A DNA stretch of 64,000 nucleotides from Actinophytocola xinjiangensis (GTDB lineage Bacteria > Actinomycetota > Actinomycetes > Mycobacteriales > Pseudonocardiaceae). Below the pieces are notes generated by a model, which was not told the origin of the DNA, did no database searches, and worked only from the letters and a program-made list of their open reading frames with translations. The translations under genes were made by a program, and so were the position numbers. Positions 7,956 through 29,212 of the stretch are shown here, one piece after another (the stretch's first letter is position 1; each line of letters begins with the position of its first letter). The stretch lies in contig NZ_MSIF01000003.1 of NCBI RefSeq assembly GCF_001921215.1, positions 124,001-188,000 on the forward strand. Direction: 5' to 3'.

Positions 7956-7958
7956 ATC

Positions 7959-8867
7959 TCACGGCTGCGGCACCGCCGGCGCCACCGCCGCGTTCGCCAC
8001 CGCCGCGCGGCGACGGCGCCACCAGCGCACCAGCGGCACCCCGGGAATCGCCAGCACCAGCACGAACGGCAGCACCGCGCCCAGCACCCGCAGCAACACG
8101 CCGCCGGCGCCGAGGAAGGCGTCCCAGCCGTCGGACAGGCCGGCGACGAACCCGCTCGACTCCTCCTCCGTCTCCACCGGCGGCGGTGCGGTGTCGTCCC
8201 GGCTCACCGCGATGGTGACGGTGGACATCGCGACCTGCCCACCCAGTGCCTGCCGGCGCTGGGTCAGCGACTCCAGTTCCGCCTCCCGCGCGGTCACCTC
8301 CTGCTCGATCCGCACGATCTCCTCGACCGTGCCCGCCCTGGCCAGCAGCGCCCGCACCCGGTCGACGCTGGCCCGCTGGGTGGCGACCCGGCTGTCCAGG
8401 TCGACGACCTGCTCGGTGACGTCCTCGGCCGTCTGGTCGCGGGACACCACCTCACCCAGCTCCGACAACTCCCCCAACGCCGCGTCGAAGCGGTCGGACG
8501 GGATGTGCAGGGTGAGCGTGGCGGACTCCTCCCTGACCTCCTCGCGACCGGCGTAGCCGCCCTCGGTGGCGGCGATGCCCCGCGCGCCGTCGACGACCTC
8601 GGCGACCGACGGCGCCGACAACGCGAGGTTGGCCGTGCGCACCAGTTTCCGGTCCACACCGGGCTGTTCGACCTTCTTCACCGGTGCCACCTCCCCCGAC
8701 TGGTCAGCCTCCGCCCCCGGCTTCGCGGCCTCCGCCGGCGCCATCTGGGCCTCGCCCCCGCTGGCGGAGTCGCTGCTCATCGCCGGGCCGCCGCTGCTGC
8801 CGGTACAGGCCGCCAGCCCGGCGGCGACCCCCAGCACCAGCGCGACGCCCACCAGTCCGCGCTTCAT
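7959..8867 (-). CDS. DUF4349 lipoprotein
   Basis: Membrane-anchored lipoprotein of 302 residues and unknown role. The ATG at 8867 is preceded by GGGAGGA; an in-frame ATG at 8900 has no such site. The N-terminus carries a lipobox ending LAAC, so the mature protein starts at a lipidated Cys. A Ser/Gly/Ala/Pro-rich linker precedes a DUF4349 domain, with a beta segment starting VDRKLVRTANLAL and a long Glu/Arg/Gln-rich coiled coil (about residues 150-225). One C-terminal membrane helix (VLGAVLPFVLVLAIPGVPLV) is followed by WWRRRR. The family is known only as a domain of unknown function in envelope proteins. It looks monocistronic. Confidence 0.85.
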   Translation of the reverse strand: MKRGLVGVALVLGVAAGLAACTGSSGGPAMSSDSASGGEAQMAPAEAAKPGAEADQSGEVAPVKKVEQPGVDRKLVRTANLALSAPSVAEVVDGARGIAATEGGYAGREEVREESATLTLHIPSDRFDAALGELSELGEVVSRDQTAEDVTEQVVDLDSRVATQRASVDRVRALLARAGTVEEIVRIEQEVTAREAELESLTQRRQALGGQVAMSTVTIAVSRDDTAPPPVETEEESSGFVAGLSDGWDAFLGAGGVLLRVLGAVLPFVLVLAIPGVPLVRWWRRRRAAVANAAVAPAVPQP

Positions 8868-9052: not shown

Positions 9053-10288
9053 ATGAGCCTGCGCAACCGTGGTCCATCCGTGCGGGCGGCGGTCATCGCC
9101 GGTGTGACCGCACTCGGGGCCGGCCTGCTCGGGGTGACCGGCGCGGCGCCGGCCGCGGCCGCCAGCGTCGACACCGGGGCCACCTACGTGTTCGTCTCCC
9201 GCCACAGCGGCAAGGCGATGGACGTGTACAACTGGGCGACCAACGACGGCGCGCCGATCGTCCAGTTCGCCCGCAACGACCTCGCCGTGCAGCAGTGGCG
9301 GTTCGTGGATGCGGGATCCGGGTACTACAAGATCAGATCCGTGCACAGCGGGAAACTGCTGGAGATGCCCAACGCCACCGACGGCACCGGTCTGGTCCAG
9401 GCCAGCGACAACGGCAGTACCCGCCAGCACTTCCGGCTCGCCGACTCCGACAGCGGGTACGTGCGGTTCATCAACCGGCACAGCAACAAGGCGCTGGACG
9501 TGTGGGAGTGGTCGACCGCCGACGGTGGCCCGATCGCCCAGTTCGCCGACCTGGACGGCTGGAACCAGCAGTGGCAGCTGGCGACGGTCGGCGGCGGGAA
9601 CCCCCCACCGGGCACCTGGCCGACGCCGACCGGGCAGGTCGCGGTGAACGGCACGATCCAGGTGTCCGGCACGCTCGACGGCGGGCTGCGGCGCTACTGC
9701 TGCATCGGCGACGGCGGCCAGGAGGAGGACCAGGACCCGATGTTCCAGCTGGCCTCGGGGGCCACGCTGCAGAACGTCATCATCGGCGCGCCGGCCGGCG
9801 ACGGCGTGCACTGCTCGGGTCCCTGCACGCTGCGCAACGTCTGGTGGGAGGACGTCGGCGAGGACGCGGCGACCTTCCGGGGCAGCGGCTCGCCGAACTT
9901 CCTGGTCGACGGCGGCGGCGCGCGGGCGGCGTCGGACAAGGTGTTCCAGCACAACGGTCCCGGCACGGTGACGATCCAGAACTTCCAGGCCAGCAACTTC
10001 GGCTCGTTCTACCGGTCGTGCGGCAACTGTTCGTCGCAGAGCCAGCGCAACGTGGTGCTGCGCAACGTCACCCTGACCCGGCCGGGTAACACCGTGGCCG
10101 GCATCAACACCAACTACGGTGACACGGCGCGGTTCTCGGGCATCACGGTGGTCAACGACCCCAACCGGTCGATGGTGATCTGCCGCAAGTACGTCGGCAA
10201 CGACGACGGCGACGAGCCGGACCAGATCGGCACCGGTCCGGACGGGACCAACTGTCTCTACAGCGCCTCGGACATCACCTACCGCTGA
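9053..10288 (+). CDS. Secreted pectate lyase (PL3) with N-terminal ricin-type lectin domain
   Basis: Predicted to cleave polygalacturonate by beta-elimination outside the cell. The 411-residue protein begins with a signal peptide (cleavage near AAAAS, residue about 38). A ricin B-type/CBM13-like carbohydrate-binding domain follows (about residues 42-175) with repeated QQW/QHF motifs. A PGTWPTPTG linker leads into a PL3 parallel beta-helix domain (about 195-411). PL3 hallmarks are GDGVHC, NVWWEDVGEDAATF, DKVFQHNGPG and YRSCGNC. The start is fixed by GAGGAGG (9041-9047). A strong hairpin follows at 10307-10340. Plant-cell-wall use fits the other secreted hydrolases here. Confidence 0.94.
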   Translation: MSLRNRGPSVRAAVIAGVTALGAGLLGVTGAAPAAAASVDTGATYVFVSRHSGKAMDVYNWATNDGAPIVQFARNDLAVQQWRFVDAGSGYYKIRSVHSGKLLEMPNATDGTGLVQASDNGSTRQHFRLADSDSGYVRFINRHSNKALDVWEWSTADGGPIAQFADLDGWNQQWQLATVGGGNPPPGTWPTPTGQVAVNGTIQVSGTLDGGLRRYCCIGDGGQEEDQDPMFQLASGATLQNVIIGAPAGDGVHCSGPCTLRNVWWEDVGEDAATFRGSGSPNFLVDGGGARAASDKVFQHNGPGTVTIQNFQASNFGSFYRSCGNCSSQSQRNVVLRNVTLTRPGNTVAGINTNYGDTARFSGITVVNDPNRSMVICRKYVGNDDGDEPDQIGTGPDGTNCLYSASDITYR

Positions 10289-16786: not shown

Positions 16787-19700
16787 TCACTTCAGTGTGT
16801 AGGCCCGGATCACGGTCTGGGTGACCGTGTTCCCGTCCTGGTCGGTCGCCGAGGCACGCAGGGACACCGAACTCGCCCCCGCCGGGTGTTCGAGCACCGC
16901 CACCTGGCGCACGAGCACCGCGGCCTTGCGCCAGGTCTTCCCCTCGTCGTAGGAGACGTCGACGGTCAGTGCCTTCGGGTACTCCAGGGCACCCAGCTCG
17001 TTCTGCATGCGCACCGGAACCAACGCCGCCCTGCCGGCCGGGGCCGAACCGTCCGCATCGAGCTTGGGCTGGAATCGAACAACGTTGAGCGGCAACGGTT
17101 CCTCGCCGTCCACATGCGACGAACGGAACGTCCACTCGGCACCGACCGAGGTGCTCAGGCCGTAGTCGGCCGACCTGGTCGCCTCGGTGGTGAGCCGGTA
17201 GTCACCGGCCTGCGCCGGCACGGAGAAGAACCCGCGCCCGGCCAGCGGCGTCTCGCCGACCAGTTCGTCGCCGAGGTAGAGCTTCGTCGAGCCGGACTCG
17301 GTCGGGGTGAAGCCCGCGTTGCCGGCGCCGTCGGTGAACAGCGGGAGGTCGACGCTGATCTCGTCCGCCCCCCGGTAGGCCCACTGGTAGTCCCCCGCCG
17401 GCAGGCCGGGGCCGAACACCGGGTGGTTGATCCGCTGGTCGTAGGTGCGACCGCTGTCGTAGGGCAGCGGCGACCCGTCGTAGCTCGCCACGAGGTCGGT
17501 CTCCCCGAAGATCCACAGGCTGGTGGCCCATCGGATGTCCTCGGTGGTGACGTGGAGGGTGCTGACCCCGGGAAGGGACACGTCCTGACCGAGTGCCGCG
17601 GTCCACAGCGAGCCCGAGGCCGGCTGAGGCGAGCGGAACAGTGATCCGCTGGGCGCCTGCGCCGACGGACCGATGTCGACCCGCAGCGTCGCCACGTCGT
17701 CCGGTCCGACGACCTTGGTGAAGTCCGTCGGGTAGCGGTCGAGGAACCAGGCAAGGGAGTACAGCTCGTTCTGGGCGTCCTGCCAGCCGGTGTGCACCCA
17801 GGCGTCGAACGCCAGTTCCGGCAACGGGTCACCGAGCTGCCCGAAGCGCACCCCGTCCAGTTCGTCACCGAAGATCAGGAACCCGCTGCCGAACGCCTGG
17901 CCGTCGTTGTCGACCTGGTAGGCGATCTCGGCGATCCCCAGCTCGGCCCCGCCGGGCGGGGTGACGTCCACCGGGCTGGCCGAGGCCAGGTCGACCTCGA
18001 AGGCCTGGTTCCGGTCGAGCAGCAGACCCGGTTGGATCAGCTGTGTGCTGTTGGAGTTGTCGTTGGTGAACGACAGGTACTCCATCAGGTAGCGACCCTT
18101 CGGCAGGCGCATCGTCACCGTGCCGTCCTCGCTGAAGCCGTCGATGATGCTGAACTCGTCCAGCCCCATCGCGCTGACGACGTAGGCGTCGGCCGCCACG
18201 GCCGGATCGTCGCGGAAGGTCACCGTGAGGTCGTAGCTCTCCTCCTCGCGGGAGATGCCCACCGGGGTGCGGGTGACCGAGTCGCCGGCGGTGGCCACGA
18301 TCGTGCCGGAGTAGGCGCCGTCGGCCGGACCGGTGCGCGGGTCTCCGGTGACCTCGACCGAGGCCGTGCCGCCGGCGGGAACGGTGAGCTGGTCGACGCT
18401 GAGCGAGAACGCGTCGGTCGGGTCGCCGTTGGGGTCGGTGGCCTCCAGCGTGAGGGCGAGCGTCACGTCGGCGTCACCGAGGTTGCGGTAGGTGACCGGC
18501 CTGGTCACCGGCTGGTCGTCCTCGCGGGGCCAGGTCTGGACGCCCAGGCTGACGCTGGAGGGCTCGGCGACCACCGACGCGGTCATCGCGCGCGGCACGT
18601 CGACCCGGCCGCTGCCCTGCTGGAAGGCGGTCAGGCCGTCGGTCGGCGTGGCCGAGCCGGCCAGGGCGGCCTTGAGCTGCTGGGCGGTCCAGTCCGGGTG
18701 CTGCTGGGCGATCATCGCGGCGACCCCGGCGACGTGCGGGGTGGCCATCGAGGTGCCCGACAGCGCGGTGTAGCCGTCCTCGACCGGCGGGGCGATGGTG
18801 CCGGCGGAGTGCAGTGCGGCCACGATCTCCACGCCCGGCGCGGTCAGGTCGGGCTTGACGGCGCCGTCGCCGACGGTCGGGCCGGTCAGCGAGAACGGGG
18901 CGAGCGAGTCGTCCCGGTCGACCGCGCCGACGGTGAGCGCCGAGGGGGCGCTGCCGGGCGAGGCGACGGGCTCGTCGTTCGAGAAACCGTTGCCGGCGGC
19001 GATCACGAACAGCACGTCGTGCTCGGCGGTGAGCGTCTCGACCGCCTGCTCCATCGGGTCGAGCCCGGGGGTGTCCGCGCCGCCGAGGCTCATGCTGATG
19101 ATGTCGGCGTCCTGGGCGGCCGCCCACTCCATGCCGGCGATGATCTCCGAGTCCGAGCCGAACCCGTAGTCGTCGAGCACCTTGCCGTCGAGGATGTCCG
19201 CGCCGCTGGCGATCCCCCGGTACTTGCCGCCGGCCTTGGCGCCGGTGCCGGCCAGGATCGACGCGACGTGCGTGCCGTGGCCGTAGTTGTCGACCGCGTC
19301 CGGGGACGCGGAGAAGTTCTGCTCGGCGACCTCCTGGCCGGCGAGGTCGGGGTGGGTCTGGTCGACGCCGGTGTCGAGCACCGCGACCCGCACACCCTCA
19401 CCGGTCAGGCCGGCCTCCCAGGCCGCCGGCGCGCCGATCTGCGCGGCGCTGCGGTCAAGGACCGCCTCGCGCTTGCCGTCGAGCCAGATCCGGTTCACCC
19501 CGCGCGTGGCCGTGCGTACCCCCACGCCGTCGGTCAACGCCTCCCAGGTGGCACCGTTCTTGGCCGCCGCGAGCGCGACGCCGTCGATGCTGGGTAACGG
19601 CCGCGAGTTACCGGCGAGCCGGGGTGCGCCGGCCCCGTCGGCACCGGTGACGATCAGCGGCACGCTGTCGGTGTGCGCGTCGTCGTAGCCGAACTCGACC

Positions 19701-20023
19701 AGCGTGGTGACGTCGAACAGCCGCCGGTCGAGGTGTCCGGTCGCGACGAGCTGGCGTGCGTCGCCGGGGATGACGTAGACGTGATCGCCGACCTTCGAAC
19801 GGGAGAACGTCATGTCGTCGCGGTCGCTGCCCGGTGTGACCGAGATGCGCTGGTCGGCGTGCAGGGTGACCTGGTCACCGGTGACCAGGGTGACCGTGGT
19901 GCCGTTGGGTCTGGCCGCGTCATGGGAGTCGCTCTGCCGGGGTGCCGCGCTCGCCACGCCGACGGTGCCGAGCACCATCCCGACGATGGCGACGCCGGTC
20001 CCGAGCGTTCTGCCTATTCGCAC
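16787..20023 (-). CDS. S8 (subtilisin-like) secreted serine protease, divergent paralogue
   Basis: Secreted protease of 1078 residues. GTG at 20023 follows GGAGG with 5-nt spacing. The signal peptide (MRIGR, hydrophobic core, VASAAP) ends near residue 27. After the prodomain the triad is Asp217 (AVLDTG), His249 (YGHGTHVAS) and Ser425 (SGTSMATPHVAG). The long C-terminal half contains beta-rich domains and ends with an Ig-like segment (TVDVSYDEGKTWRKA, ASATDQDGNTVTQT). It shares this end motif (ADDGRTWQK, AVDVNGNTVDQT) with the two S8 proteases at the left end but is otherwise diverged. It lies downstream of a TetR gene but has its own promoter. Confidence 0.94.
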   Translation of the reverse strand: MRIGRTLGTGVAIVGMVLGTVGVASAAPRQSDSHDAARPNGTTVTLVTGDQVTLHADQRISVTPGSDRDDMTFSRSKVGDHVYVIPGDARQLVATGHLDRRLFDVTTLVEFGYDDAHTDSVPLIVTGADGAGAPRLAGNSRPLPSIDGVALAAAKNGATWEALTDGVGVRTATRGVNRIWLDGKREAVLDRSAAQIGAPAAWEAGLTGEGVRVAVLDTGVDQTHPDLAGQEVAEQNFSASPDAVDNYGHGTHVASILAGTGAKAGGKYRGIASGADILDGKVLDDYGFGSDSEIIAGMEWAAAQDADIISMSLGGADTPGLDPMEQAVETLTAEHDVLFVIAAGNGFSNDEPVASPGSAPSALTVGAVDRDDSLAPFSLTGPTVGDGAVKPDLTAPGVEIVAALHSAGTIAPPVEDGYTALSGTSMATPHVAGVAAMIAQQHPDWTAQQLKAALAGSATPTDGLTAFQQGSGRVDVPRAMTASVVAEPSSVSLGVQTWPREDDQPVTRPVTYRNLGDADVTLALTLEATDPNGDPTDAFSLSVDQLTVPAGGTASVEVTGDPRTGPADGAYSGTIVATAGDSVTRTPVGISREEESYDLTVTFRDDPAVAADAYVVSAMGLDEFSIIDGFSEDGTVTMRLPKGRYLMEYLSFTNDNSNSTQLIQPGLLLDRNQAFEVDLASASPVDVTPPGGAELGIAEIAYQVDNDGQAFGSGFLIFGDELDGVRFGQLGDPLPELAFDAWVHTGWQDAQNELYSLAWFLDRYPTDFTKVVGPDDVATLRVDIGPSAQAPSGSLFRSPQPASGSLWTAALGQDVSLPGVSTLHVTTEDIRWATSLWIFGETDLVASYDGSPLPYDSGRTYDQRINHPVFGPGLPAGDYQWAYRGADEISVDLPLFTDGAGNAGFTPTESGSTKLYLGDELVGETPLAGRGFFSVPAQAGDYRLTTEATRSADYGLSTSVGAEWTFRSSHVDGEEPLPLNVVRFQPKLDADGSAPAGRAALVPVRMQNELGALEYPKALTVDVSYDEGKTWRKAAVLVRQVAVLEHPAGASSVSLRASATDQDGNTVTQTVIRAYTLK

Positions 20024-20179: not shown

Positions 20180-20857
20180 TTAACCGGACGACCTCGGCGT
20201 CAGCATGGGGACGAGGAACTGGTGGGCCACCTCGGCCAGCCGCTCCTCGTCGTCGAGATCGATGACGAGGCTGGGAATCGCCAGAAACGAGGCGGAAACC
20301 CGCACCATCATCTCGGCTACGAGATCGGCGTCCAGCTCGCCGGACACCGTGCCGGCGCGCTGCTCGCGGCGCAGCTGGCCGGCGACGAACTGCCGGACGG
20401 TGGCCAGGGTCCGGCCACCATCGGTGATCATCGAGGGCACCAGCAGGTCCGGTTCGGCGGCGATGAGCCCACCGATCAACGGATTGTTCCGAATGGCACG
20501 CAACGAGCTGACAAAACCGAGAACCACTCGGTCCGCCGCCGTCGTGGCCCGTTCGATATCAATGAGGAACTGGTCGAAATAACGCCGGAACTCGCGGCGG
20601 ACGACATGTTCGACCAGAGTGTCCTTCGTGGCGAACCGGCGGTAGACGGTGATCCGCGAAACCCCTGCCCGGCGGGCCACGTCTTCCATTGTGGACCGCT
20701 GGATACCCATCCGGCAGAACTGTTCGTAGGCCGCGTCGAGAATGCGGGAGCGCGCCTCGTCCACGTCGTCGACCTGTTCGACGGCGTCGGTGTAGGCACG
20801 CTCCAGCAACGACTCGGAGCCCCTCGGCGCCATGAATACGGACAGTGCGGGTTCCAC
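20180..20857 (-). CDS. TetR-family regulator divergent from lcp
   Basis: Predicted DNA-binding repressor of 225 residues. GTG at 20857 is chosen because GGAGG sits 5 nt upstream; an ATG at 20833 has none. The N-terminal HTH is about residues 31-78 (RILDAAYEQF, MEDVARRAGVSRITVYRRF). The C-terminal ligand domain is helical, with a long tail (LVIDLDDEERLAEVAHQFL). It is divergently transcribed from the tandem lcp genes across a 158-bp spacer, the arrangement of known lcp-associated TetR regulators in rubber degraders, so it probably controls lcp-oxiBA. The inducer is unknown. Confidence 0.88.
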   Translation of the reverse strand: MEPALSVFMAPRGSESLLERAYTDAVEQVDDVDEARSRILDAAYEQFCRMGIQRSTMEDVARRAGVSRITVYRRFATKDTLVEHVVRREFRRYFDQFLIDIERATTAADRVVLGFVSSLRAIRNNPLIGGLIAAEPDLLVPSMITDGGRTLATVRQFVAGQLRREQRAGTVSGELDADLVAEMMVRVSASFLAIPSLVIDLDDEERLAEVAHQFLVPMLTPRSSG

Positions 20858-20912
20858 GCTCACCTCCGGTGGCCGATTCTGCCTCATCGCCCTCCGCGGC
20901 GACTACAGGGCC

Positions 20913-20976
20913 TTGTGATGACCGATACGGTGTGTTATTGATGATACACAGAAGCATCTCTCGTTTCATCGTATCA
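20913..20976 (+). promoter_or_regulatory. Candidate lcp promoter and operator region
   Basis: A possible + strand promoter is TTGTGA (20913-20918), a 17-bp spacer and TATTGA (20936-20941). An inverted repeat with arms TGATAC (20942-20947) and GTATCA (20971-20976) lies just downstream, in an AT-rich patch between the divergent TetR and lcp genes. It may hold the TetR operator; no exact dyad of typical TetR size is obvious. Confidence 0.35.
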
Positions 20977-21015
20977 GTACAGTGCTCGGGCCTCGACGAG
21001 GAGGAAGAGCTAGCC

Positions 21016-22221
21016 ATGGACGGACTCAGCAGGCGCAACATGTTGAAGGCGGGCGGCGTGATGGGCGCGGCCGGCGCACTCGGCGTGGCGGTGCCGTGGA
21101 CCTGGTCGGCCAGCGGTTCGGTGGCTGGCGCGGGTGCCGGCGCCGACCCCCGATGGGTGTGGGACCCGGAGGCCGACCCGCTGGTCGCCTCCCTGCTCGA
21201 CCGGGGCGACGTGCCCCGGGTCAACCAGCTTCTCCGGACCTGGACCAAGAACGGCCAGCCGCTGCCCTCCGGACTCCCGGCCGACCTGCGCGACTTCATG
21301 GACAGCGCCCGGCAGCTGCCGTCCTGGACCGACCAGGGCAAGCTCGCCACCGCCTTCGACTTCAACGAGAAGCGCGGGCTCTACCTCGGCGTCCTGTACG
21401 GACTGGCCAGCGGCATGATGAGCACGGTCATCCCCAAGGAGGCTCGCGCGGTCTACTACTCGCAGGGCGGCGCGGACATGAAGGACCGCATCTCCAAGAC
21501 CGCCAAACTCGGCTACGACATCGGCACCCGCAACGCCTACGCCGCCGACGGCGAGATGATCGTGACCTGCGTGAAGACCAGACTCGTGCACGCCGCCGTG
21601 CGCCACCTGCTGCCGCAGTCGCCGCACTGGCCGCCGGTCGCCGAGGAGGACATCCCGATCAGCCAGCGGGACATGATGGTCACCTGGCACAGCCTGCCGA
21701 CGACCGTCATGCGGAAACTCGTCGACTGGAGGGTGCCGATCCCCGCCCACGAGTCCGAGGCGTTCCTGCACTCCTGGCAGGTGTGCGCGCACATGCTCGG
21801 CATCCACGACGAGTACATCCCGGCCACCTGGGACGAGGCCAACTCCCAGGCCGATCAGGTGCTCAACCCGGTCCTCGCGCCGACCAACGAGGGCATCGCG
21901 CTGGCCGACATCCTGCTCAACCTGGGCTCGATCATCGACGGCGGCATCCTGAGCAAGCCCATCCTCGGCGCGTTCACCCGGTTCATGCTCGGCGACCAGA
22001 TCGCCAGCTGGCTGCGGATCTCGCGCTACCCGCTGTGGGACGGGCTGCTGCGCACCGCGTGGGGCCCGTTCATCGCCGTGCGCGAGGGCCTGCTGCCCTT
22101 CCCGGGAGCGCCGGACGCCTACTGGCTGTTCGACGAGTTCCTGCGCAAGGCAGCGCTGCTGTTCCTCTCCGAAGGACGGACGATCAGCATCGAGATCCCC
22201 GAGTCCAACCGTCCTTCCTGA
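21016..22221 (+). CDS. lcp: Lcp-type rubber oxygenase (latex clearing protein), copy 1
   Basis: Secreted b-type heme dioxygenase expected to cleave double bonds of poly(cis-1,4-isoprene) into oligo-isoprenoids with aldehyde and ketone ends. It has 401 residues. The ATG follows GAGGAAG and opens a Tat signal (SRRNMLK). The MpaB/Lcp catalytic domain (PF09995 type) holds Arg158, Lys161, Thr162, His192, Arg196 and His197. These match Arg164, Lys167, Thr168, the heme ligand His198, Arg202 and His203 of Streptomyces K30 Lcp at a constant offset of six. It is followed 34 bp later by a second lcp and then by oxiBA. The substrate is inferred from the heme-pocket signature and the oxiAB neighbours. Confidence 0.92.
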   Translation: MDGLSRRNMLKAGGVMGAAGALGVAVPWTWSASGSVAGAGAGADPRWVWDPEADPLVASLLDRGDVPRVNQLLRTWTKNGQPLPSGLPADLRDFMDSARQLPSWTDQGKLATAFDFNEKRGLYLGVLYGLASGMMSTVIPKEARAVYYSQGGADMKDRISKTAKLGYDIGTRNAYAADGEMIVTCVKTRLVHAAVRHLLPQSPHWPPVAEEDIPISQRDMMVTWHSLPTTVMRKLVDWRVPIPAHESEAFLHSWQVCAHMLGIHDEYIPATWDEANSQADQVLNPVLAPTNEGIALADILLNLGSIIDGGILSKPILGAFTRFMLGDQIASWLRISRYPLWDGLLRTAWGPFIAVREGLLPFPGAPDAYWLFDEFLRKAALLFLSEGRTISIEIPESNRPS

Positions 22222-22255
22222 CCGATGTGCACGCGATGACGAGGAGTTCGTGGGA

Positions 22256-23473
22256 ATGGCGGAGCTGAGCAGGCGCAGGATGTTGGTCTCGGGTGGTGCC
22301 GTCGGTGCGCTGGGTGCGCTCGGCGTGGCCACCCCGGCCCAGGCACGCACGACCGACTGGTCGTGGGCCCCCAGCGGATCGGTGGCCGGTGCCGGCGCCG
22401 GCACCGATCCGCGGTGGGTGTGGGACGAGGAGGCCGACCCGCTGGTCGCCTCGCTGCTGGACCGGGGCGCGGTGCCCGAGGTCAACCGGCTGCTGTGGAA
22501 CTGGAATCGCAACGACCAGCCGCTGCCCGCCGGGCTGCCGGCCGACCTGGCGGACTTCATCGAGGGCGCCCGGCAGCTGCCGTCGTGGGCCGACCGGGGC
22601 AAACTGGAGACCGCGGCCGAGTTCAACAAGTCGCGGGGCCTGTACCTCAACCTGCTCAACGGTGTCGGCGGTGGCATGCTCAGCACCGCCATTCCCAAGG
22701 AGGCGCGCGCGGTCTACTACTCGGCGGGTGGCGCCGACATGGAGGACCGCGTCGCCAAGACCAGCATCCTCGGCTTCGCCGTCGGCGCGCTCAACGCCTA
22801 CCGGCCCGACGGCAACTGCGTGGTCAACGCGGTGAAGACCAGGCTGGTGCACGCCGCCGTGCGCCACCTGCTCCAGCAGTCCCCGCACTGGGGCGGCGAC
22901 ATCCCGATCAGCCAGGAGGACATGCTGGTCACCTGGCACACGCTGCCGACCTTCGCGATGCGCGAGATGCTCAGGTGGAAGGTCCCGATGCCCACCGCCG
23001 ACCGCGAGGCCTACCTGCACTCCTGGCAGGTGACCGCGCACCTGCTCGGCATCCGCGACGAGTACATCCCGGCCACGTGGGACGCGGCCAACGCCCAGTC
23101 CGACCAGGTCCTGCCGCGCAACATGGGGCCGACCGGCGAGGGCGTGGTGCTGACCGACATCCTGCTCGGCCAGCTCGCCGAGCAGACCAGCCCGGGCAGC
23201 ATCAGCCGGCCGCTGTGCAACGCGCTGGCCCGGTTCCTGGTCGGTGAGCAGGTCGCCGACTGGGACGAGATCCCCCGGGAACCGTTCTGGGAGCGCACGA
23301 TCGCCACCGTGTGGCCGATCCTGGTGCGTTTCCGCGAGGGCCTGGTGCCGCTGCCGCTGGTGCCGGAGATCGCCTGGACCATCGACGAGGCGCTGCGTCA
23401 GTACATACTGTTCTTCCTCACCAAGGGCCAGGAAACGAAGATCGAGATCCCGACGGCCAACCGGCCGGAGTGA
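22256..23473 (+). CDS. lcp: Lcp-type rubber oxygenase, copy 2
   Basis: Tandem paralogue of 405 residues with the same predicted role. ATG at 22256 lies 9 nt after GAGGAG; the GTG two codons earlier is also possible. The Tat motif is SRRRMLVSGG. Heme-pocket residues are conserved: Arg165, Lys168, Thr169, His199 (axial ligand position), Arg203 and His204. Differences from copy 1 include a longer signal region, loss of a short VAE insertion after PHW, and different residues flanking the pocket, so the two may differ in product size or substrate. The oxiB ATG begins 2 bp after its stop, so the genes are co-transcribed. Confidence 0.92.
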   Translation: MAELSRRRMLVSGGAVGALGALGVATPAQARTTDWSWAPSGSVAGAGAGTDPRWVWDEEADPLVASLLDRGAVPEVNRLLWNWNRNDQPLPAGLPADLADFIEGARQLPSWADRGKLETAAEFNKSRGLYLNLLNGVGGGMLSTAIPKEARAVYYSAGGADMEDRVAKTSILGFAVGALNAYRPDGNCVVNAVKTRLVHAAVRHLLQQSPHWGGDIPISQEDMLVTWHTLPTFAMREMLRWKVPMPTADREAYLHSWQVTAHLLGIRDEYIPATWDAANAQSDQVLPRNMGPTGEGVVLTDILLGQLAEQTSPGSISRPLCNALARFLVGEQVADWDEIPREPFWERTIATVWPILVRFREGLVPLPLVPEIAWTIDEALRQYILFFLTKGQETKIEIPTANRPE

Positions 23474-23475
23474 CG

Positions 23476-25779
23476 ATGACCGAACCGGGTGGTGGTGGCG
23501 ACGTGGCTGGGTCCATCGGGCGGCGGCGGTTCCTCGGCTACGTGCTGGCGGCGCCGACGCTGGTGACCGCGGCCGAGCTGGGAGTGGCGAGCGCGGCGGG
23601 GGCGCAGCCGGCGGCGGCCCCCCGCGTCGCCGACCTGCTCGACCTGACCGACCTGATGACGGTCGCGACGCTGCCCACCGCCGGGCTGATCGCGGTCGAG
23701 GTCCACGCGGACGGCACGGCGTCCTTCGCGCTGCCCCGGGCCGAGGTCGGCCAGGGCATCACCACCTCGACGGCCATGCTGATCGCCGAGGAGCTGTCCC
23801 TTCCGCTGGACCGGATCCGGGTCACCCTCGCCGACGCCCGGCCCGAGCTGGTGTTCAACCAGCTCACCGGCGGGTCGAACACCACCCACGCCACCTACCG
23901 CCCGATCCGGGTGGCCGCCGCGATCGCCCGACAGCGGCTGCTGGCGGCGGCGTCGGCCGAGCTGGGCTCGCCGGCCGGCGAGCTGACGTTGTCGGCCGGC
24001 GTGGTCACCGACCGCGCCGGCCGGGGCGTGGAGCTCGGGGTGCTGGCGGTCAGGGCGGCCAGCGACCGGTCCGAGCCGGTGACCGTCGAGCTGGCGGCCA
24101 GGGAGAGCTTCACGGTCATCGGGCGCCCGCACAACCGGGTGGACGCGCTCGACGCGGTGACCGGGCGCAAGAAGTTCGCCATGGACCTCGCCGTGCCGAA
24201 CGCGTTGCCGACGATGGTCTGCCGGCCGCCGACCATCAACGGCACGGTCAACTCGGTGGCCAACCTGGCGGAGGTCGCCGCCATGCCGGGCGTGACCGAC
24301 GTCGTGGTGATCGGCACCGGGGTGGCGGTCCGCGCGCGGACCTTCGGGCAGTGCGTCGACGGCGTGCGGGCGCTGCGGGTCAGCTGGAAGGCGGGCACCG
24401 CGGCCGGGAAGTCCGACGAGACGGTGCTGCGTGAGCTGGCCGCCGCCGAGCTGCCGCTGGGTCTGCTGCCGCCGCTGACGCCGACCGTGGAGGGCCGGTT
24501 CACCTTCCACTTCCGGGGCAACAGCGCGCTGGAGCCCAACTGCGCCATCGCCGACGTCCGGGCCGACCGGGCCGAGATCTGGTCGGCGCTCAAGTCGCCG
24601 ATCGTGGCCAGGCAGTCGATCGCCGCGCGGATCGGGCTGCCGCTGAACCGGGTCACCGTGCACGTCACCGAGGGCGGCGGTTCCTTCGGCCGCAAGCTGT
24701 TCTTCGACGCCGCGCTGGAGGCGGCGGAGGTGTCCAAGAAGATCGGCAAGCCGGTGAAGCTGATGTGGCACCGCGCCGACGACACCCGGCAGGGACGCAC
24801 CCACCCGATGGCGACCTCGCGGGTGCGGATGTCCTATCTCGGGGACGCGGTGCTGGGCTACCAGCAGCGGCACACCAGTGTGTCCACCGACCTCGGCCAC
24901 GGGCTCGGCGAGATCATCACCGCGTTCGCCGCACAGCTGCCGGTCGGGGACATCGGGTTCGCCGAGACGTTCTTCCTGCTCAGCCAGGAGCAGTCCTACC
25001 GGTTCGGGGTCAGCAGCCAGTTGCTCAGTGAGACCGACAAGGGCTTCAACACCGGCAGCACGCGCAACGTCTACTCCCCCGACGTCACCACCGCCCGCGA
25101 GCTGATCGTCGACCAGCTCGCCGCCAGGATGGGCTCCGACCCCCACGACTTCCGCCGCCGGTTCCTGCGCGCCGACCGCGCGAAGGCCGTACTGGCCAAG
25201 GTCGCCGAGGTCGGACAGTGGGGCAGGGCGATGCCGGCCGGGACCGCGCAGGGCATCGCGTTCCACGCCGAGTACAAGTCGGTCAGCGCCGCGCTGGTGG
25301 AGATCGACTGCCGGCCGGAGACGGTGAACCGGCCCATCCGCGACGGCGTCGGCGGCCCCCGGGTCACCAAGGTCGTGTTCGCCGTGGACGTCGGGCTCGC
25401 GGTCAACCCGCGCGGGCTGGAGGCGCAGATGATGGGCGGTGTCATGGACGGCATCGCGCTGGCGCTGACCTCCAGCCTGCACCTGCGCGACGGGTACTTC
25501 CTGGAAGCCAGCTGGGACAACTACTTCTACACCCGCCAGTGGAACACCCCGCTCGACCTGCGGATCATCATCATGCCGGACACCTCGGAGGACCCCGGCG
25601 GGGCCGGTGAGCTGAGTGTGGCGGCGTCGATGGCGGCGGTGGCGTGCGCCTACGGGCGGGCGACCGGGACCATGCCGACCACCTTCCCGATCAACCACGG
25701 CACGCTGTCCTTCGAGCCCAAGCCGACCGTGCCGCCGGTGCCGGCCTCGCCGACCGACGGCCGCGACCACGCCAGCTGA
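23476..25779 (+). CDS. oxiB: Molybdopterin-binding large subunit of aldehyde oxidase (OxiB-like)
   Basis: Large subunit of a xanthine-dehydrogenase/isoquinoline-oxidoreductase-type enzyme; in Streptomyces K30 the oxiA/oxiB genes next to lcp encode the oxidase that converts Lcp-derived aldehydes to acids. The protein has 767 residues. The ATG comes 2 bp after lcp copy 2. A Tat-like motif IGRRRFLGYV suggests export. Molybdopterin-domain signatures include EVGQGITTSTAMLIAEEL, EGGGSFGRKLF and a C-terminal GGAGELSVAAS with the presumed catalytic Glu. The FeS partner is the next gene. Substrate assignment rests on gene context. Confidence 0.9.
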   Translation: MTEPGGGGDVAGSIGRRRFLGYVLAAPTLVTAAELGVASAAGAQPAAAPRVADLLDLTDLMTVATLPTAGLIAVEVHADGTASFALPRAEVGQGITTSTAMLIAEELSLPLDRIRVTLADARPELVFNQLTGGSNTTHATYRPIRVAAAIARQRLLAAASAELGSPAGELTLSAGVVTDRAGRGVELGVLAVRAASDRSEPVTVELAARESFTVIGRPHNRVDALDAVTGRKKFAMDLAVPNALPTMVCRPPTINGTVNSVANLAEVAAMPGVTDVVVIGTGVAVRARTFGQCVDGVRALRVSWKAGTAAGKSDETVLRELAAAELPLGLLPPLTPTVEGRFTFHFRGNSALEPNCAIADVRADRAEIWSALKSPIVARQSIAARIGLPLNRVTVHVTEGGGSFGRKLFFDAALEAAEVSKKIGKPVKLMWHRADDTRQGRTHPMATSRVRMSYLGDAVLGYQQRHTSVSTDLGHGLGEIITAFAAQLPVGDIGFAETFFLLSQEQSYRFGVSSQLLSETDKGFNTGSTRNVYSPDVTTARELIVDQLAARMGSDPHDFRRRFLRADRAKAVLAKVAEVGQWGRAMPAGTAQGIAFHAEYKSVSAALVEIDCRPETVNRPIRDGVGGPRVTKVVFAVDVGLAVNPRGLEAQMMGGVMDGIALALTSSLHLRDGYFLEASWDNYFYTRQWNTPLDLRIIIMPDTSEDPGGAGELSVAASMAAVACAYGRATGTMPTTFPINHGTLSFEPKPTVPPVPASPTDGRDHAS

Positions 25780-25793
25780 ACAAGGAGATCCGC

Positions 25794-26270
25794 GTGCCAG
25801 AGCACACCTTTCGCGTCAACGGCGAGCAGGTGACGGTCACCGTCGAGGACGACGTGCGGCTGCTGTGGGTGTTGCGCGACATCCTCGGCATCACCGGCCC
25901 GAAGTACGGCTGCGGCATCAACGTGTGCCGCGCGTGCACCAGCCACCTCAACGGGCGGGCCGTCAGCCCGTGCTCGATCCCGGTCGGCGACCTCGAACCG
26001 ACCGACGAGGTGACCACCATCGAGGGCCTCGCGGCGACGGTCGACGAGGACCTGCACCCGATGCAGCGGGCCTGGCTCGACCACGACGTCGCCCAGTGCG
26101 GCTACTGCCAGCCCGGCCAGATCATGGCGGCCGTGGCGCTGGTCCGCCGGGTCACCGAGGAGGGCCGGTCGATCACCGACGCCGACCTCGACGGCCTGCG
26201 CAACATCTGCCGCTGCGGCACCTACCCGCGTATCCGCGACGCCATCCGGGACGGCGCGGCGAGGATGTGA
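25794..26270 (+). CDS. oxiA: [2Fe-2S] small subunit of aldehyde oxidase (OxiA-like)
   Basis: Electron-transfer subunit of 158 residues with two [2Fe-2S] clusters, partner of the preceding molybdenum subunit. GTG at 25794 follows AAGGAG (25782-25787). The N-terminal ferredoxin-like domain has the plant-type cluster GCGINVCRAC and a downstream Cys (SPCSIP). The C-terminal alpha-helical domain has CGYCQPG and CRCGTYPRI. There is no signal peptide of its own, so if OxiB is Tat-exported this subunit must travel with it or the complex stays inside. It is the last gene of the lcp operon; the next gene converges 2 bp later. Confidence 0.93.
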   Translation: MPEHTFRVNGEQVTVTVEDDVRLLWVLRDILGITGPKYGCGINVCRACTSHLNGRAVSPCSIPVGDLEPTDEVTTIEGLAATVDEDLHPMQRAWLDHDVAQCGYCQPGQIMAAVALVRRVTEEGRSITDADLDGLRNICRCGTYPRIRDAIRDGAARM

Positions 26271-26272
26271 CC

Positions 26273-27259
26273 TCAGGCCCCGCCGACCGGCAGGCCGAGG
26301 CCGGCGAGCAGGTCCAGGACCTCCGGCGGGGCGCCGCCGCCGAACCGGACGGTCCCGTCGAGCCCGAGCCGGGCGCGCAGCGGGGCGAGGACGGTCTCGT
26401 CGGCCGGCACCGAACAGTCCACAGTGGACAGGACGTGTCGGATGAGGGTGGCGAGCCGCTCCCACGCCGGGGGCGCGCCGAGAAAAGCCTGTGGTGCCAC
26501 CGTGGTCAGCGTTTCGGCGAGCCGGTCGGGGTCCTGGCAGACGGTGACGTGCCCGGCCGAGTAGACCGGCAGGTACAGGCCGAGCACGCGGTCCTCGACG
26601 TGGGTCAGCGGCAGGTGGGCGACGGTCCTGGGGTGCGGCGCGGTCGGCCGGGCCAGCTCCTGGGTGACGCACCGGTGCAGGACGTCGCGGTGGGAGACCA
26701 CCACGCCCGCCGGGTCGGCGACGGTGTGCACCACCGCCACCGGGTCGTCCTGGCTGTCCTCGGTGAGCGGCGCGTCGTGCCCGGCGGTGAGCAGGTCGGC
26801 GTAGCGGGTGTGCCCGTCGCCGTCCAGCACGACCACCCCGCGCAGGGCCGGCATCGCGGCCAGCGCCGGCGCCCACCGGGTGAGTTCGGCCGGGCCCGTC
26901 AGGACGACGACGGTCGCCCCGCTGTCCCGGGCGATCCGGTGGAGCTGGTCGGGGCCCAGGGCCGCGTCGACCGTGCAGGGAATCGCGCCGAGCTGGACCG
27001 AGGCCAGGTCGACCACCCAGTGCTCGGGGCGGGTGGCCGGGCCAAGGAGCATCCGCTCACCCCGGCGCAGGCCCAGCGCGGACAGGCCACCGGCGACGGC
27101 GAGCACCTCCTCGCCGAGCTGGGACCAGGTGCGGGTGACGCCGTCGGCCCCGGTGAGGGCGGGCAGGTGCCCGTGGACGGTGACGTCGCGGCGGAGCAGG
27201 CGGGAGATCGTCCAGGCACCGACCGAGGACCGGACCTGCTCAGCGGTGACCATCGCCAT
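26273..27259 (-). CDS. Truncated, degenerate AMP-binding (acyl-CoA ligase-like) protein
   Basis: A 328-residue protein matching only the N-terminal two thirds of fatty-acyl-CoA ligases (normally 500-600 residues). It aligns from TWSQLGEEVLAVAGGL to about GTVRFGGGAPPEVLDLL. It stops before the usual YGxTE motif and lacks the whole C-terminal domain. The phosphate-binding loop, normally TSGTTGxPKG, is replaced by VHTVADPAGVVVSHRDV. Catalysis is therefore unlikely; it may be a decaying gene or a binding protein. The start ATG (27259) has GGGAAG upstream. It converges on oxiA and is divergent from a double-TetR gene that may control it. Confidence 0.7.
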   Translation of the reverse strand: MAMVTAEQVRSSVGAWTISRLLRRDVTVHGHLPALTGADGVTRTWSQLGEEVLAVAGGLSALGLRRGERMLLGPATRPEHWVVDLASVQLGAIPCTVDAALGPDQLHRIARDSGATVVVLTGPAELTRWAPALAAMPALRGVVVLDGDGHTRYADLLTAGHDAPLTEDSQDDPVAVVHTVADPAGVVVSHRDVLHRCVTQELARPTAPHPRTVAHLPLTHVEDRVLGLYLPVYSAGHVTVCQDPDRLAETLTTVAPQAFLGAPPAWERLATLIRHVLSTVDCSVPADETVLAPLRARLGLDGTVRFGGGAPPEVLDLLAGLGLPVGGA

Positions 27260-27371
27260 GTCACCATCTTCCCGAATCACGACTTACTTGTCGACACACA
27301 TCCCCAGGTGAAACGCGAAATCTTTGATAACAGCGCCCGATTTCCGATTCAGTGCGAGGTACTCTCCGGCC

Positions 27372-28532
27372 ATGCCGGTCACCCAGCGACGTCGGCCTCG
27401 GGACCGGGGAGCGTGTATCGCCCTCGCCGCGGCGGAGTTGTTCTGCGTGCGCGGGTTTCACAACGTCGCGCTGGAGGACATCGCCGGGGTCGTGGGCATC
27501 ACCGGCCCGGCGATCTACCGGCACTTCCCGACCAAACAGGCGATCCTGGCCGCCGCCGTCGAGGAGCTGGCGGGCGCGTTCGCGACCACCGTGGCGTCCG
27601 CCGCGCCGGGCGGGCTGCCCGACGTGGTCGGCGCCCTGGTGCGGTTCGCCCTCGACCGGCGACCGGTGGTCCGGCTCTACCAGTGGGAGAGCCGCCACCT
27701 GCCGGCCGGCGAGCGCGTCAGGCTGGCCGGGCGGTTCGCCGACACCGTGGCGGTACTGCGGGAACTGGTGGCCGGCAACCGACCCTCACTGTCCACGCGG
27801 GACGTCTCGGTGCTGGTGGCGGCCGCGCTGAGCGTCGTGGTCAGCCCGTCGACCCACCGCGCCACCCTGGCCAGGAGCACCGCCGAACGGACCGTCACCG
27901 ACGGCGCGCTGGCCGTGCTCGCCACCGACCTGCCGCCCCCAGGACGCCGCCCGGCCGGCCCGGACCGGCGGCTCACCCTGCTCCCCCGCCGCGAACGCCT
28001 GCTGGCCGAGGCGGTGCGGCTGTTCCACGAACGCGGCTACCACGCGGTCAGCATCGCCGAGATCGGGGCGGCGGCCGGGATCACCGCCTCCAGCGTCTAC
28101 GCCCACGTCACCGGTAAGGCCGACCTGCTCGCCGCCGCCTACCACCGGGCCACCAGCCGCCTCGAACTCGCCACGGCCGAGGCGCTCACCGGCACCACCA
28201 GCCCGGCCACCGCACTGCGCCGGCTGGCCGAGACCTACGTGCGGATCACCTTCGACCAGGCCGACCTGACCGCCGTCTACGTCTCCGAGAGCGAGAACCT
28301 GCGGCCGGCCGACCGCCACCGGCTGCGGGTCGCGCAGCGCCGCCACGTCGACACCTGGGTCGGGCTGCTCGGCGACCTGGAGCCGCAACGCCCGGCGGTA
28401 CTGCGCTTCCGGGTGCACGCCGCGCTGAACGTGGTCACCGACCTCGCCCGCACCGGCGGCCGGTCGGTCACCGAACAACGCGCGGTCGCGCTGGTACTGG
28501 CGCTGCTCGATCAGCGGCGGAACTGGTCGTAG
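27372..28532 (+). CDS. Double TetR-family regulator (two HTH domains in one chain)
   Basis: A 386-residue protein made of two TetR units. The first HTH is about residues 13-60 (ALEDIAGVVGITGPAIYRHF) and its effector domain runs to about 190. A Pro/Arg linker (PPPGRRPAGPDRR) leads to a second HTH at about 208-255 (SIAEIGAAAGITASSVYAHV) with its own helical C-terminal domain. One polypeptide could thus mimic a TetR dimer. The ATG at 27372 has only a distant GAGG. It is divergent from the truncated ligase. Its 3' end overlaps the convergent next gene by 22 bp. Confidence 0.88.
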   Translation: MPVTQRRRPRDRGACIALAAAELFCVRGFHNVALEDIAGVVGITGPAIYRHFPTKQAILAAAVEELAGAFATTVASAAPGGLPDVVGALVRFALDRRPVVRLYQWESRHLPAGERVRLAGRFADTVAVLRELVAGNRPSLSTRDVSVLVAAALSVVVSPSTHRATLARSTAERTVTDGALAVLATDLPPPGRRPAGPDRRLTLLPRRERLLAEAVRLFHERGYHAVSIAEIGAAAGITASSVYAHVTGKADLLAAAYHRATSRLELATAEALTGTTSPATALRRLAETYVRITFDQADLTAVYVSESENLRPADRHRLRVAQRRHVDTWVGLLGDLEPQRPAVLRFRVHAALNVVTDLARTGGRSVTEQRAVALVLALLDQRRNWS

Positions 28533-29212
28533 AACCCTGCCTTCACGTCCACCACGGCCTCCTCGGTGCGGCGGAACACCTTCTGCTCCTCCGGCGAGTC
28601 CAGCCGCTGCCACAACCGAAGACCCAGCTGGTCGGAGTGGGTGGAGGCCAGCGGGGACGCCTCGGCCAGCGGCCGGATCTTCGCGTCGTGCACCTTGTGC
28701 GGCAGGTAGAACGTCGACCGGTCGCCCAGCAGCGGGCCGATCCGCCGCCACAACTGTTCGTACTCCACCGACACCAGTACCTCGCCCCAGAACCGCAGGA
28801 TCGTGATCAGCCCGGTGTCCGGGTACTCCCCCGCACCGGCCACCGCGATCAGCTCCAGCGTGCGGGTGATGGTCTCGACGGTGCACGGCGAGGGCCGCGA
28901 GCGCACCAGGTCCTCCCGACGCACCCCCAGCCGCAGGATGTCCTCGGTCATCTCCTCGCGGTGCGACGGCGTGCGGCCGTCCTCGTCGGGGTACTCCTCA
29001 CGCAGGATCGCCCGCGCGACACGCAAGGTCTGCTGGTCGCTCAGCAGGTCGATCGCCAGGTCGTAGGCCGGGGTGAACGCCAGCGACAGGAACCGCCGCT
29101 GCAACACCACCTCGTGGAACTCGACGTCGGTCAGCCGGTCCACCCGGCGCAGCACCGGGTGGTCGCGGAACCGCGCGATCTGCTCGTCCTCGAACTCGTC
29201 CAGCTCGTGCAC
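28511..29212 (-). CDS. Heme-oxygenase-fold iron-dependent redox protein (putative)
   Basis: A helical protein of 233 residues that I assign tentatively to the iron-containing redox/heme-oxygenase-like superfamily (PF14518-type or HDO). The supporting pattern is an acidic/His helix VEFHEVVLQRRF, then REEYPDEDGRTPSHREEM followed by ILRLG, and a later LPHKVHDAKI, all plausible metal-ligand positions. Members bind non-heme diiron or act on small amino acids or acids; the substrate is unknown. It is the third gene of an operon with an Nramp-like transporter and a membrane protein, 12 bp behind the latter. A metal supply-and-use link is attractive but inferred. Confidence 0.55.
   Translation of the reverse strand: MHELDEFEDEQIARFRDHPVLRRVDRLTDVEFHEVVLQRRFLSLAFTPAYDLAIDLLSDQQTLRVARAILREEYPDEDGRTPSHREEMTEDILRLGVRREDLVRSRPSPCTVETITRTLELIAVAGAGEYPDTGLITILRFWGEVLVSVEYEQLWRRIGPLLGDRSTFYLPHKVHDAKIRPLAEASPLASTHSDQLGLRLWQRLDSPEEQKVFRRTEEAVVDVKAGFYDQFRR

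Follow-up and report, generated by a model that had tools for sequence, protein, structure and literature searches.

Several actinomycetes carry two rubber oxygenases in one operon, and in the accessible text of the publications on these operons the reason for this is left open. The same question is raised by a locus of Actinophytocola xinjiangensis in the window analysed here (the whole stretch of 64,000 nucleotides), in which two genes for latex clearing proteins (Lcp) stand in tandem.

The locus and its published relatives

The locus contains the following features:

20180..20887, minus strand: divergent TetR/AcrR regulator gene (LcpR-like); 235 aa, PF00440 at E=1.7e-13
20942..20976, no strand: candidate LcpR operator, a 35-bp imperfect palindrome (TGATAC..GTATCA)
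21016..22221, plus strand: lcp1, latex clearing protein of clade A; 401 aa, twin-arginine signal without an AxA site
22256..23473, plus strand: lcp2, latex clearing protein of clade B2; ATG start, 405 aa, twin-arginine signal
23476..25779, plus strand: oxiB, molybdopterin-binding subunit of an aldehyde oxidoreductase; 767 aa, twin-arginine motif near the N-terminus
25794..26270, plus strand: oxiA, [2Fe-2S] subunit; GTG start, 158 aa

The lcp1 gene lies in an open frame at 20845-22221 (+), and its ATG start at 21016 is preceded by GAGGAGGAAGAG. The first-pass annotation described a rubber-oxygenase locus with tandem lcp genes, oxiBA and a divergent TetR gene, which is borne out by gene order, starts, families and structure matches. 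The five-gene layout is already published and is not new here. In Actinoplanes sp. OR16, the lcp1-lcp2-oxiB-oxiA genes and the TetR gene ACTI_59620 agree with the window in order and orientation; for this operon, co-transcription, TetR binding and rubber assays with either Lcp in purified form have been reported (PMC7413915). The same layout is described in Streptomyces CFMR7 and Dactylosporangium AC04546 (PMC9108482, PMC11169899). The AC04546 locus lcp2/lcp3-oxiB-oxiA (L025) has a TetR gene, a type A lcp, a type B2 lcp, oxiB and oxiA in the order of the window (PMC11169899; types are defined below). Both of its Lcps are 83% identical to those of the window, and a second TetR gene lies nearby. 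By the identities between OR16 and AC04546 proteins (PMC11169899), OR16 Lcp1 pairs with the A-type and Lcp2 with the B2-type protein of L025; the OR16 sequence stands outside our tree. Streptomyces sp. K30 has an OxiAB pair in its lcp-oxiB-oxiA locus, and its Lcp has the same heme-pocket residues as the window Lcps. The 9.1-kb plasmid stretch of Gordonia polyisoprenivorans VH2, unlike the window, has neither tandem lcp genes nor oxiBA. Just downstream of the operon the window, unlike OR16, has a double-TetR gene and an acyl-CoA ligase gene that is shortened; it is doubtful that this ligase takes part in the pathway.

OxiB matches PF20256 (E=2.8e-27) and PF02738 (E=9.5e-22) and carries the twin-arginine motif GRRRFL. 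OxiA matches PF01799 (E=4.5e-25) and PF00111 (E=2e-6); its start is preceded by AAGGAG, and a signal peptide is not apparent in it by eye. Neither protein reached an NCBIfam equivalog cut-off. OxiB and OxiA are 80% and 82% identical to their counterparts in L025, and those of AC04546 are reported to be 77.5% and 74.5% identical to the K30 proteins (PMC11169899). We infer that this molybdenum cofactor subunit and [2Fe-2S] subunit adjoining the lcp genes are the OxiAB of rubber operons, with a predicted role in the oxidation of oligo-isoprenoid aldehydes.

At 76 of 81 loci (80 loci plus the window), an lcp gene has a TetR relative immediately upstream in divergent orientation. The palindrome is conserved across 13 aligned TetR-lcp regions, and in the 9.5-Mb genome it is the sole match at up to 3 mismatches. 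It was present in all 76 TetR-lcp regions with 0-7 of 25 mismatches, versus 10-15 in one shuffle of each. LcpR_VH2 exerts TetR-type control by a palindrome (PMC7413915), as we propose for the window. The LcpR_VH2 site before the plasmid lcp resembles our palindrome in its left half only (9 of 25 mismatches, close to the 10-15 of the shuffles), and an operator identical to that of LcpR_VH2 is not supported beyond this half-site. The palindrome proposed for OR16 (PMC7413915) differs in sequence from that of the window when compared by eye. The window palindrome was not found between the lcp3 gene of the same genome and its neighbour (best 11 mismatches), and no palindrome of the published lcp3 kind was found with three patterns at that lcp3 stretch and one in the window. 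In OR16 the TetR counterpart binds upstream of lcp1 (PMC7413915). From the divergent gene and the operator-like palindrome, we propose that the window TetR is of the LcpR type, and binding to the palindrome is predicted.

Both Lcps match the solved LcpK30 structure 5O1L, with E=4.8e-156 for Lcp1 and 9.8e-158 for Lcp2. They are identical to K30 Lcp at 233/400 (58.2%) and 237/402 (59.0%) positions, respectively, and to each other at 242/397 (61.0%). The key residues of LcpK30 are the proximal His198, the distal Lys167, Arg164/Thr168 and the base Glu148 (PMC5522427). According to the first-pass annotation, both proteins keep the heme-pocket residues at the spacing of K30 Lcp, with an offset of 6 in copy 1. 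This was confirmed: all nine residues checked (E148, R164, K167, T168, R195, H198, R202, H203 and H232) are present in both, and from R164 to H203 the numbering offset against K30 is -6 in Lcp1 and +1 in Lcp2. AlphaFold models of Lcp1 and Lcp2 (pLDDT 83.9 and 77.9) align to 5O1L/5O1M with TM 0.81-0.90, a fold match that at 58-59% sequence identity to LcpK30 is no independent test. We infer from sequence that both are latex clearing proteins, and heme binding and polyisoprene cleavage are predicted.

Two Lcp types and their co-occurrence

A tree of 73 Lcps was built without an outgroup, after removal of duplicate places (L004, L005, L087-L091, then L092, L095) and of one non-Lcp place (L001). 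Three clades were supported: A (100/98), B1 (99/94) and B2 (100/100), with B1+B2 against the rest at 98/95. Lcp1 falls in A together with the VH2 plasmid Lcp, Lcp2 falls in B2, and the K30 Lcp, unlike both window proteins, belongs to the third clade, B1. An lcp mutant of K30 retained about half of the wild-type mineralisation of rubber (0.82 versus 1.63% in 50 days; PMC3426405), for which a B2 gene upstream of its lcp might be the reason. When four very distant MpaB-like rows were added as an outgroup, they formed long branches with erratic attachment, one of them inside B2; this rooting was set aside, and the tree is unrooted among A, B1 and B2. Placement of both proteins outside the Lcp clade, named in the annotation as an outcome against its reading, was not found: they fall among the Lcps with and without the MpaB outgroup. 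Streptomyces Lcps have been grouped into three clusters (PMC9108482). A literature search, mostly without reach into subscription papers, found neither the two types nor the 162/392 swap (see below) in earlier work.

Co-occurrence was counted at the best 80 of 143 loci ranked by similarity to Lcp2, a set not informative on the frequency of A or B1 without B2. A second Lcp was nearby in 72 of these 80 (44 A, 26 B1, 2 other), and OxiB was found at 65 (two weak). B2 genes side by side with a second lcp gene are spread over six families. It turned out that B2 is not an obligate partner, as seven of eight Nonomuraea genomes with a lone B2 have no other Lcp at E<=1e-60. One place (L125) has a lone B1 gene, with no other Lcp in its 1.5-kb flanks. 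The LcpK30 catalytic residues show little or no variation among 45 A, 26 B1, 73 paired B2 and 8 lone B2 proteins. Judging by these sequences, Lcp1 and Lcp2 appear to be two old, separately conserved and mostly co-retained types.

Differences between the types and what they may mean

The first-pass annotation proposed a division of labour, such as polymer versus oligomer cleavage, from a different signal region and loop in one copy. This difference is real in the window pair. Both Lcps have the twin-arginine motif SRRxxL, with a PF10518 match at E<=0.001 for Lcp1 only; the Lcp1 signal region is about 7 residues shorter than that of Lcp2 and lacks the AxA site, and the loop after the HLLxQSPHW stretch differs. 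It is not a conserved mark of the types: with gene starts chosen by our own rule, the AxA site is missing in 8 of 44 A, 2 of 25 B1 and 6 of 76 B2 proteins scored, and the loop residues are retained in about 57% of 79 paired B2 rows. Since neither is fixed by type, signal peptide and loop were rejected as the functional difference.

No recent gene conversion was seen between the window lcp1 and lcp2: they share no exact DNA run above 26 bp, which is also the median for A+B2 pairs. Among 28 B1+B2 pairs, chiefly from Streptomyces, the longest runs reach 150 bp with a median of 58, compared with a median of 27 and a maximum of 77 in 80 random cross-locus pairs. Residues 1-60 of these 28 pairs are homogenised within the locus (0.812 same-locus versus 0.722 cross-locus), and residues 121-200 and 301-407 only slightly. 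Some species, present in two collections, were counted twice in the homogenisation, DNA-run, loop and gate-enrichment analyses (identical protein ends: L015/L101, L031/L104, L058/L118, L069/L112). For the final residue counts only the 80 loci and the window were used, a set free of identical rows.

In these counts, K162/E392 occurs in 38 of 45 A proteins (the other 7 deviate) and in 26/26 B1, whereas 72 of 73 paired B2 have the reversed E162/K392. Positions 131, 134, 138, 169, 173 and 174 are G, Y, S, A, Y and D in all 45 A and all 26 B1 proteins. The 73 paired B2 have N131 (72), N134 (73), G138 (72), S169 (73), F173 (73) and A or S at 174 (65 and 8). Glu392 lies at the wide tunnel mouth of LcpK30, for which a gate has been defined (PMC11095694); we tested residues 155-176 plus 392-397 as the gate region. 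At the strict threshold, 6 of 17 B2-specific sites lie inside the gate (expected 1.3, P=0.0008), compared with 0 of 13 A-specific and 0 of 8 B1-specific sites; at the looser threshold the gate holds 7 of 29 (P=0.0036), 1 of 31 and 0 of 16, respectively. Tunnel residues alone showed no enrichment of B2-specific sites (P=0.17 and 0.09 at the two thresholds), and tunnel plus pocket showed a weak one (P=0.10 and 0.035). The B2-specific sites were drawn up before the gate definition was consulted, and five region sets were tried at two thresholds; columns within one protein are not independent, and these P values are a guide only. As far as the alignments go, the types are set apart by residues other than signal and loop, several of them at the proposed LcpK30 gate.

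Thus, the proposed division of labour gains evolutionary support in its general form from two anciently separate, mostly co-retained clades that carry type-fixed substitutions, several of them at the proposed gate; the signal and loop evidence offered for it does not stand. The polymer versus oligomer split of Lcp1 and Lcp2 has no support here, because both purified OR16 Lcps took up oxygen on natural rubber (Lcp1 4.02 and Lcp2 1.17 U/mg; PMC7413915); the accessible text of that paper mentions no product-size analysis. We tentatively suggest, as possible rather than probable, that rubber operons hold two functionally different oxygenases: a K30/VH2-like enzyme (A or B1) and a B2 enzyme with a reversed-charge gate (E162/K392) and a changed pocket region (N134, G138, S169, F173, A174). 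The two may work one after the other, or each on its own form of substrate (long chains versus chain ends or oligomers). B2 would then be a distinct enzyme class under the name Lcp that sets the final oligomer length.

It is also possible, but rather unlikely, that the two window Lcps share one job, with the extra copy serving only dosage, or other temperature, pH or surface conditions. The nine heme-pocket residues are identical in the two proteins, and both OR16 counterparts are active on natural rubber, with optima of 30 C, pH 7.0 and 35 C, pH 7.5 (PMC7413915). However, the strongly supported clades A and B2, the side-by-side genes in six families and the type-fixed substitutions argue against a shared job. 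Copies kept simply for dosage should turn over or become alike, yet in B1+B2 pairs homogenisation affects residues 1-60 strongly, and 121-200 and 301-407 just slightly.

The natural substrate may instead be other soil polyisoprenoids or terpenoids, with rubber activity incidental, which we consider less likely still. An Lcp-like gene (E<=1e-80) occurs in 36 of 394 class-wide and 75 of 297 family genomes, A. xinjiangensis being in both sets, and these counts probably exceed the known rubber degraders. There is also a weak fold resemblance to t-anethole oxygenase (rank 4; E=0.043 and 0.0062; TM 0.46-0.61). Retention of all nine heme-pocket residues and the induction of OR16 lcp genes by natural rubber (PMC7413915) speak for rubber. 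That Lcp1 and Lcp2 belong to the MpaB-fold oxygenases but not to the Lcp family is extremely improbable and already refuted by sequence. Both match PF09995 (DUF2236; 59.6 and 52.3 bits, cut-off 23), but this family is common to MpaB and Lcp proteins, so the match is necessary and not sufficient for an Lcp. Three other proteins of this genome outscore them on the profile, and one distant outgroup row fell inside B2. Against this stand the full-length identity to LcpK30, compared with 31% or less for 17 of 19 plasmid-borne matches to Lcp1 (16 Streptomyces, one Persicobacter record), the placement among Lcps in the trees, and 5O1L and 5O1M as by far the best fold matches.

Proposed working of the operon and its significance

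We hold it highly probable that the locus serves rubber degradation as an operon of the published lcp1-lcp2-oxiB-oxiA type, with two old Lcp types, and works as outlined below. By analogy with OR16 and VH2, the TetR protein would repress the operon from the 35-bp palindrome and be released by products of rubber breakdown. Both Lcps would be exported by Tat as folded heme proteins and, given their conserved residues, would use O2 to cleave cis-1,4-polyisoprene at its C=C bonds, giving oligo-isoprenoids that end in aldehyde and ketone groups. Cleavage of polyisoprene has been shown for K30, and for OR16 as oxygen uptake on rubber (PMC7413915); all three AC04546 Lcps, as crude extracts, gave aldehyde from rubber (PMC11169899). 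By analogy with K30, OxiAB, exported on the OxiB Tat signal, would oxidise the aldehyde ends to acids, which may be taken up for beta-oxidation. Lcp1 would have a K30-like entrance. Lcp2 would share the core of Lcp1, with an entrance and pocket region changed by E162/K392 together with N131, N134, G138, S169, F173 and A174; because of this change, Lcp2 most likely differs in the substrate form that it admits or the product length that it releases.

What is new here is the comparative part, that is, the types and the gate residues; the tandem layout is not news. If the types make different oligomers, this would be useful for converting waste rubber to defined oligo-isoprenoids. The window locus adds one more example to a known operon type and comes with a hypothesis of specialisation that can be tested. 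The comparison leads to a concrete test, as a handful of residues tells the types apart almost or entirely without exception, and some of these residues cluster at the entrance predicted for an enzyme of known structure.

The lcp operon and its published counterparts

The first-pass annotation had described a rubber-oxygenase locus with tandem lcp genes and oxiBA opposite a TetR gene. Gene order and Pfam families bear this out:

20180-20887, minus strand, TetR gene (Pfam TetR_N)
21016-22221, plus strand, lcp1 (MPAB_Lcp_cat)
22256-23473, plus strand, lcp2 (MPAB_Lcp_cat)
23476-25779, plus strand, oxiB (MoCoBD_1/2)
25794-26270, plus strand, oxiA (Fer2/Fer2_2)

The spacers from lcp1 to oxiA are 34, 2 and 14 bases, as in a single putative transcript. 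In Actinoplanes sp. OR16, lcp1-lcp2-oxiB-oxiA with a divergent TetR gene is co-transcribed according to RT-PCR, oxygen uptake by the Lcps on rubber was demonstrated (on natural rubber latex, purified Lcp1, Lcp2 and Lcp3 show activities of 4.02, 1.17 and 0.22 U/mg), and the TetR protein binds upstream of lcp1 (PMC7413915). An adjacent lcp pair followed by oxiB-oxiA is also described in Dactylosporangium sp. AC04546 and Streptomyces CFMR7 (PMC11169899, PMC9108482). The window operon belongs to this published type, and its layout was already known. Thus, the latex assay proposed in the first-pass annotation has partly been done on relatives.

For Streptomyces sp. K30 Lcp, cleavage and Tat secretion have been demonstrated. 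Structure comparison of predicted models gave this protein as the top fold match of both Lcp1 and Lcp2, and for both proteins the solved relatives at E≤0.001 were limited to the two K30 Lcp sequences. Both proteins keep R195, R202, H203 and H232 (K30 numbering), which we take to be heme-pocket sites, partly from the annotated motif. They also keep E148, R164, K167, T168 and H198, the active-site residues of LcpK30 (PMC5522427). All nine heme-pocket residues checked are in place in both copies. The Lcp1 signal has no AxA site, without which the protein may stay tethered or be cleaved elsewhere; Lcp2 of AC04546, which belongs to the same clade A, also has none, and its predicted cleavage is AWT-WA (PMC11169899). 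We infer expression, secretion and activity of the window Lcp and Oxi proteins. OxiAB would act on aldehydes from rubber cleavage, and we also infer the nature of the Lcp1/Lcp2 difference.

An acyl-CoA ligase-like gene (26273-27280, minus) ends 2 bp from the oxiA stop. Its product of only 335 aa covers positions 2-271 of the 384 in the AMP-binding profile and lacks the C-terminal part. Relatives in 30 fetched lcp loci have open frames of 464-698 codons, some clipped by the locus end, and those in two Dactylosporangium loci have 200. The P-loop-like stretch looks degenerate; together with the missing C-terminal part, this suggests that the gene is probably decaying. Next to it, a 402-aa protein (27324-28532, plus) contains TetR_N twice, an arrangement also reported for the LcpR_BA3(2)-like ACTI_69510. 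Two further places in the genome match both of its halves: C12:329364-330509 (42%) and, some 5 kb from lcp3, C56:287484-288572 (35%). A 233-aa protein (28511-29212, minus) matched no Pfam family at E≤0.001, and none of the fetched loci contained a relative at E≤1e-15. The TetR gene adjoins a 1078-aa subtilase-family protein (16787-20023, minus), whose matches of at least 150 bits in fetched loci beyond its own genome came to one, partial, in L079. A pectate lyase with ricin-type lectin repeats lies at 9053-10288 (plus).

A search of the own genome (9,535,536 bases, 72 contigs) gave a third Lcp gene, lcp3, at C56:281262-282467. In the fetched locus L131 (C56:276000-288000) it occupies 5260-6468 (minus), divergent to an aldehyde dehydrogenase gene (6652-8256, plus), and is flanked on the opposite side by PhzF-like, PhzA/B-like and O-methyltransferase genes. 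Lcp was found in three of six Actinophytocola genomes, this one included.

An operator-like palindrome in the TetR-lcp region

Alignment of 13 TetR-lcp regions, with a type A gene first in all, gave the consensus TGATACRCAGA-N10-GTTTCATCGTATCA. The window copy (20942-20976) is the sole match in the genome at ≤3 mismatches. Of 81 loci, the window among them, 76 have a TetR relative divergently upstream of an lcp gene. Scored against the pattern, each of these 76 regions had a best match with 0-7 mismatches of 25, and one shuffle of each gave 10-15. The 38 A-first regions had 0-7 mismatches, and the 38 B2-first regions (lone B2 included), none of which was used to build the pattern, had 1-6. The published plasmid site of Gordonia polyisoprenivorans VH2 was recovered in place; the pattern fits only its left half, with 9 mismatches.

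Two types of Lcp

In the tree of 73 Lcps, with the outgroup omitted and groups read as sides of branches, support was 100/98 for A (window Lcp1), 99/94 for B1 (K30 Lcp) and 100/100 for B2 (window Lcp2); B1+B2 separated from the rest at 98/95. FastTree on 197 rows plus one MpaB outgroup gave the same groups (B1 98, B2 100), with A depending on forks at 89-94. Judged by sequence, Lcp1 and Lcp2 are two old types.

We scanned the named genome collection with Lcp2 and kept the best 80 of 143 relatives, from six families. Within the fetched stretches, 72 of these 80 loci carry another Lcp (44 type A, 26 type B1, 2 neither) and eight have B2 alone; OxiB is present in 65, weakly in L034 and L065. The order TetR-A-B2-oxiBA occurs in the window and 28 of the 80, and two Dactylosporangium loci have it with an extra TetR. 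TetR-B2-B1-oxiBA occurs in 20, B2-oxiBA then TetR-A in four and TetR-B2-A-oxiBA in three; the remaining orders are rarer still. A. algeriensis (L007) and A. oryzae (L021) have B2-oxiBA then A, so the window order is unlike that of its congeners.

In K30 numbering, seventeen sites are strictly B2-specific: 131, 134, 138, 162, 169, 173, 174, 238, 314, 315, 316, 339, 385, 386, 391, 392 and 396. When residues were counted in the 80 loci and the window, all 45 A and all 26 B1 proteins had G131, Y134, S138, A169, Y173 and D174. In the 73 B2 paired with a second Lcp, these sites are N131 (72), N134 (73), G138 (72), S169 (73), F173 (73) and A174 (65) or S174 (8). The 162/392 pair is K/E in 38/45 A and 26/26 B1, and E/K in 72/73 paired B2.

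The eight lone B2 genes (L074, L077, L078, L080, L082, L083, L085, L086) are single, diverged Nonomuraea lcp genes that keep TetR; their fetched stretches hold no partner lcp or oxiBA, and seven of the eight genomes have no other Lcp at E≤1e-60. Here 162/392 is K/K (7) or K/R (1), and several type sites carry other letters (V131, T/A134, A138, N169).

In the entry path proposed for LcpK30, the substrate passes a gate with loop 155-160 and helix 160-176 on one side and residues 392-397 on the other; the same study assigns Glu392 to the wide mouth of tunnel 2 and Ser138 to the pocket (PMC11095694). This proposed gate holds 6 of the 17 strict B2 sites (expected 1.3, P=0.0008), 0/13 A-specific and 0/8 B1-specific sites; the other 11 B2 sites lie outside it. 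At a looser threshold it holds 7/29 B2 (P=0.0036), 1/31 A and 0/16 B1 sites. The B2 list was drawn up before the gate definition was read, and five region sets were tried. Tunnel-lining residues alone showed no clear enrichment of B2 sites (4/17, P=0.09; 5/29, P=0.17).

Sequence exchange between the copies

In 28 B1+B2 pairs, same-locus paralogs are more alike over residues 1-60 (0.812) than paralogs across loci (0.722) and even orthologs (0.733 and 0.723), a likeness reached by 0 of 2000 permutations. A slight same-locus excess persists at 121-200 and 301-407: 0.012 (121-150), 0.019 (151-200), 0.009 (301-350) and 0.007 (351-407), reached by 2, 0, 3 and 110 of 2000 permutations. Exact DNA runs in these pairs reach 150 bp and point to gene conversion. 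In five Streptomyces loci (L039, L041, L043, L049, L061) the tandem genes share exact DNA stretches of 74-150 bp within their first third, a sign of gene conversion between paralogs clearly unlike in 121-200 and 301-407. The 49 A+B2 pairs show little such excess (0.694 vs 0.682 in 1-60, 0.565 vs 0.555 beyond), and no recent conversion was seen between window lcp1 and lcp2.

Thus, the Streptomyces copies swap sequence yet differ where most B2 marks lie. Comparative evidence, absent from the literature covered, argues that Lcp1 and Lcp2 would be separate functional types. Type-specific sites are possible only where conversion failed to reach; with this caveat, we read the persistent differences as selection for two types.
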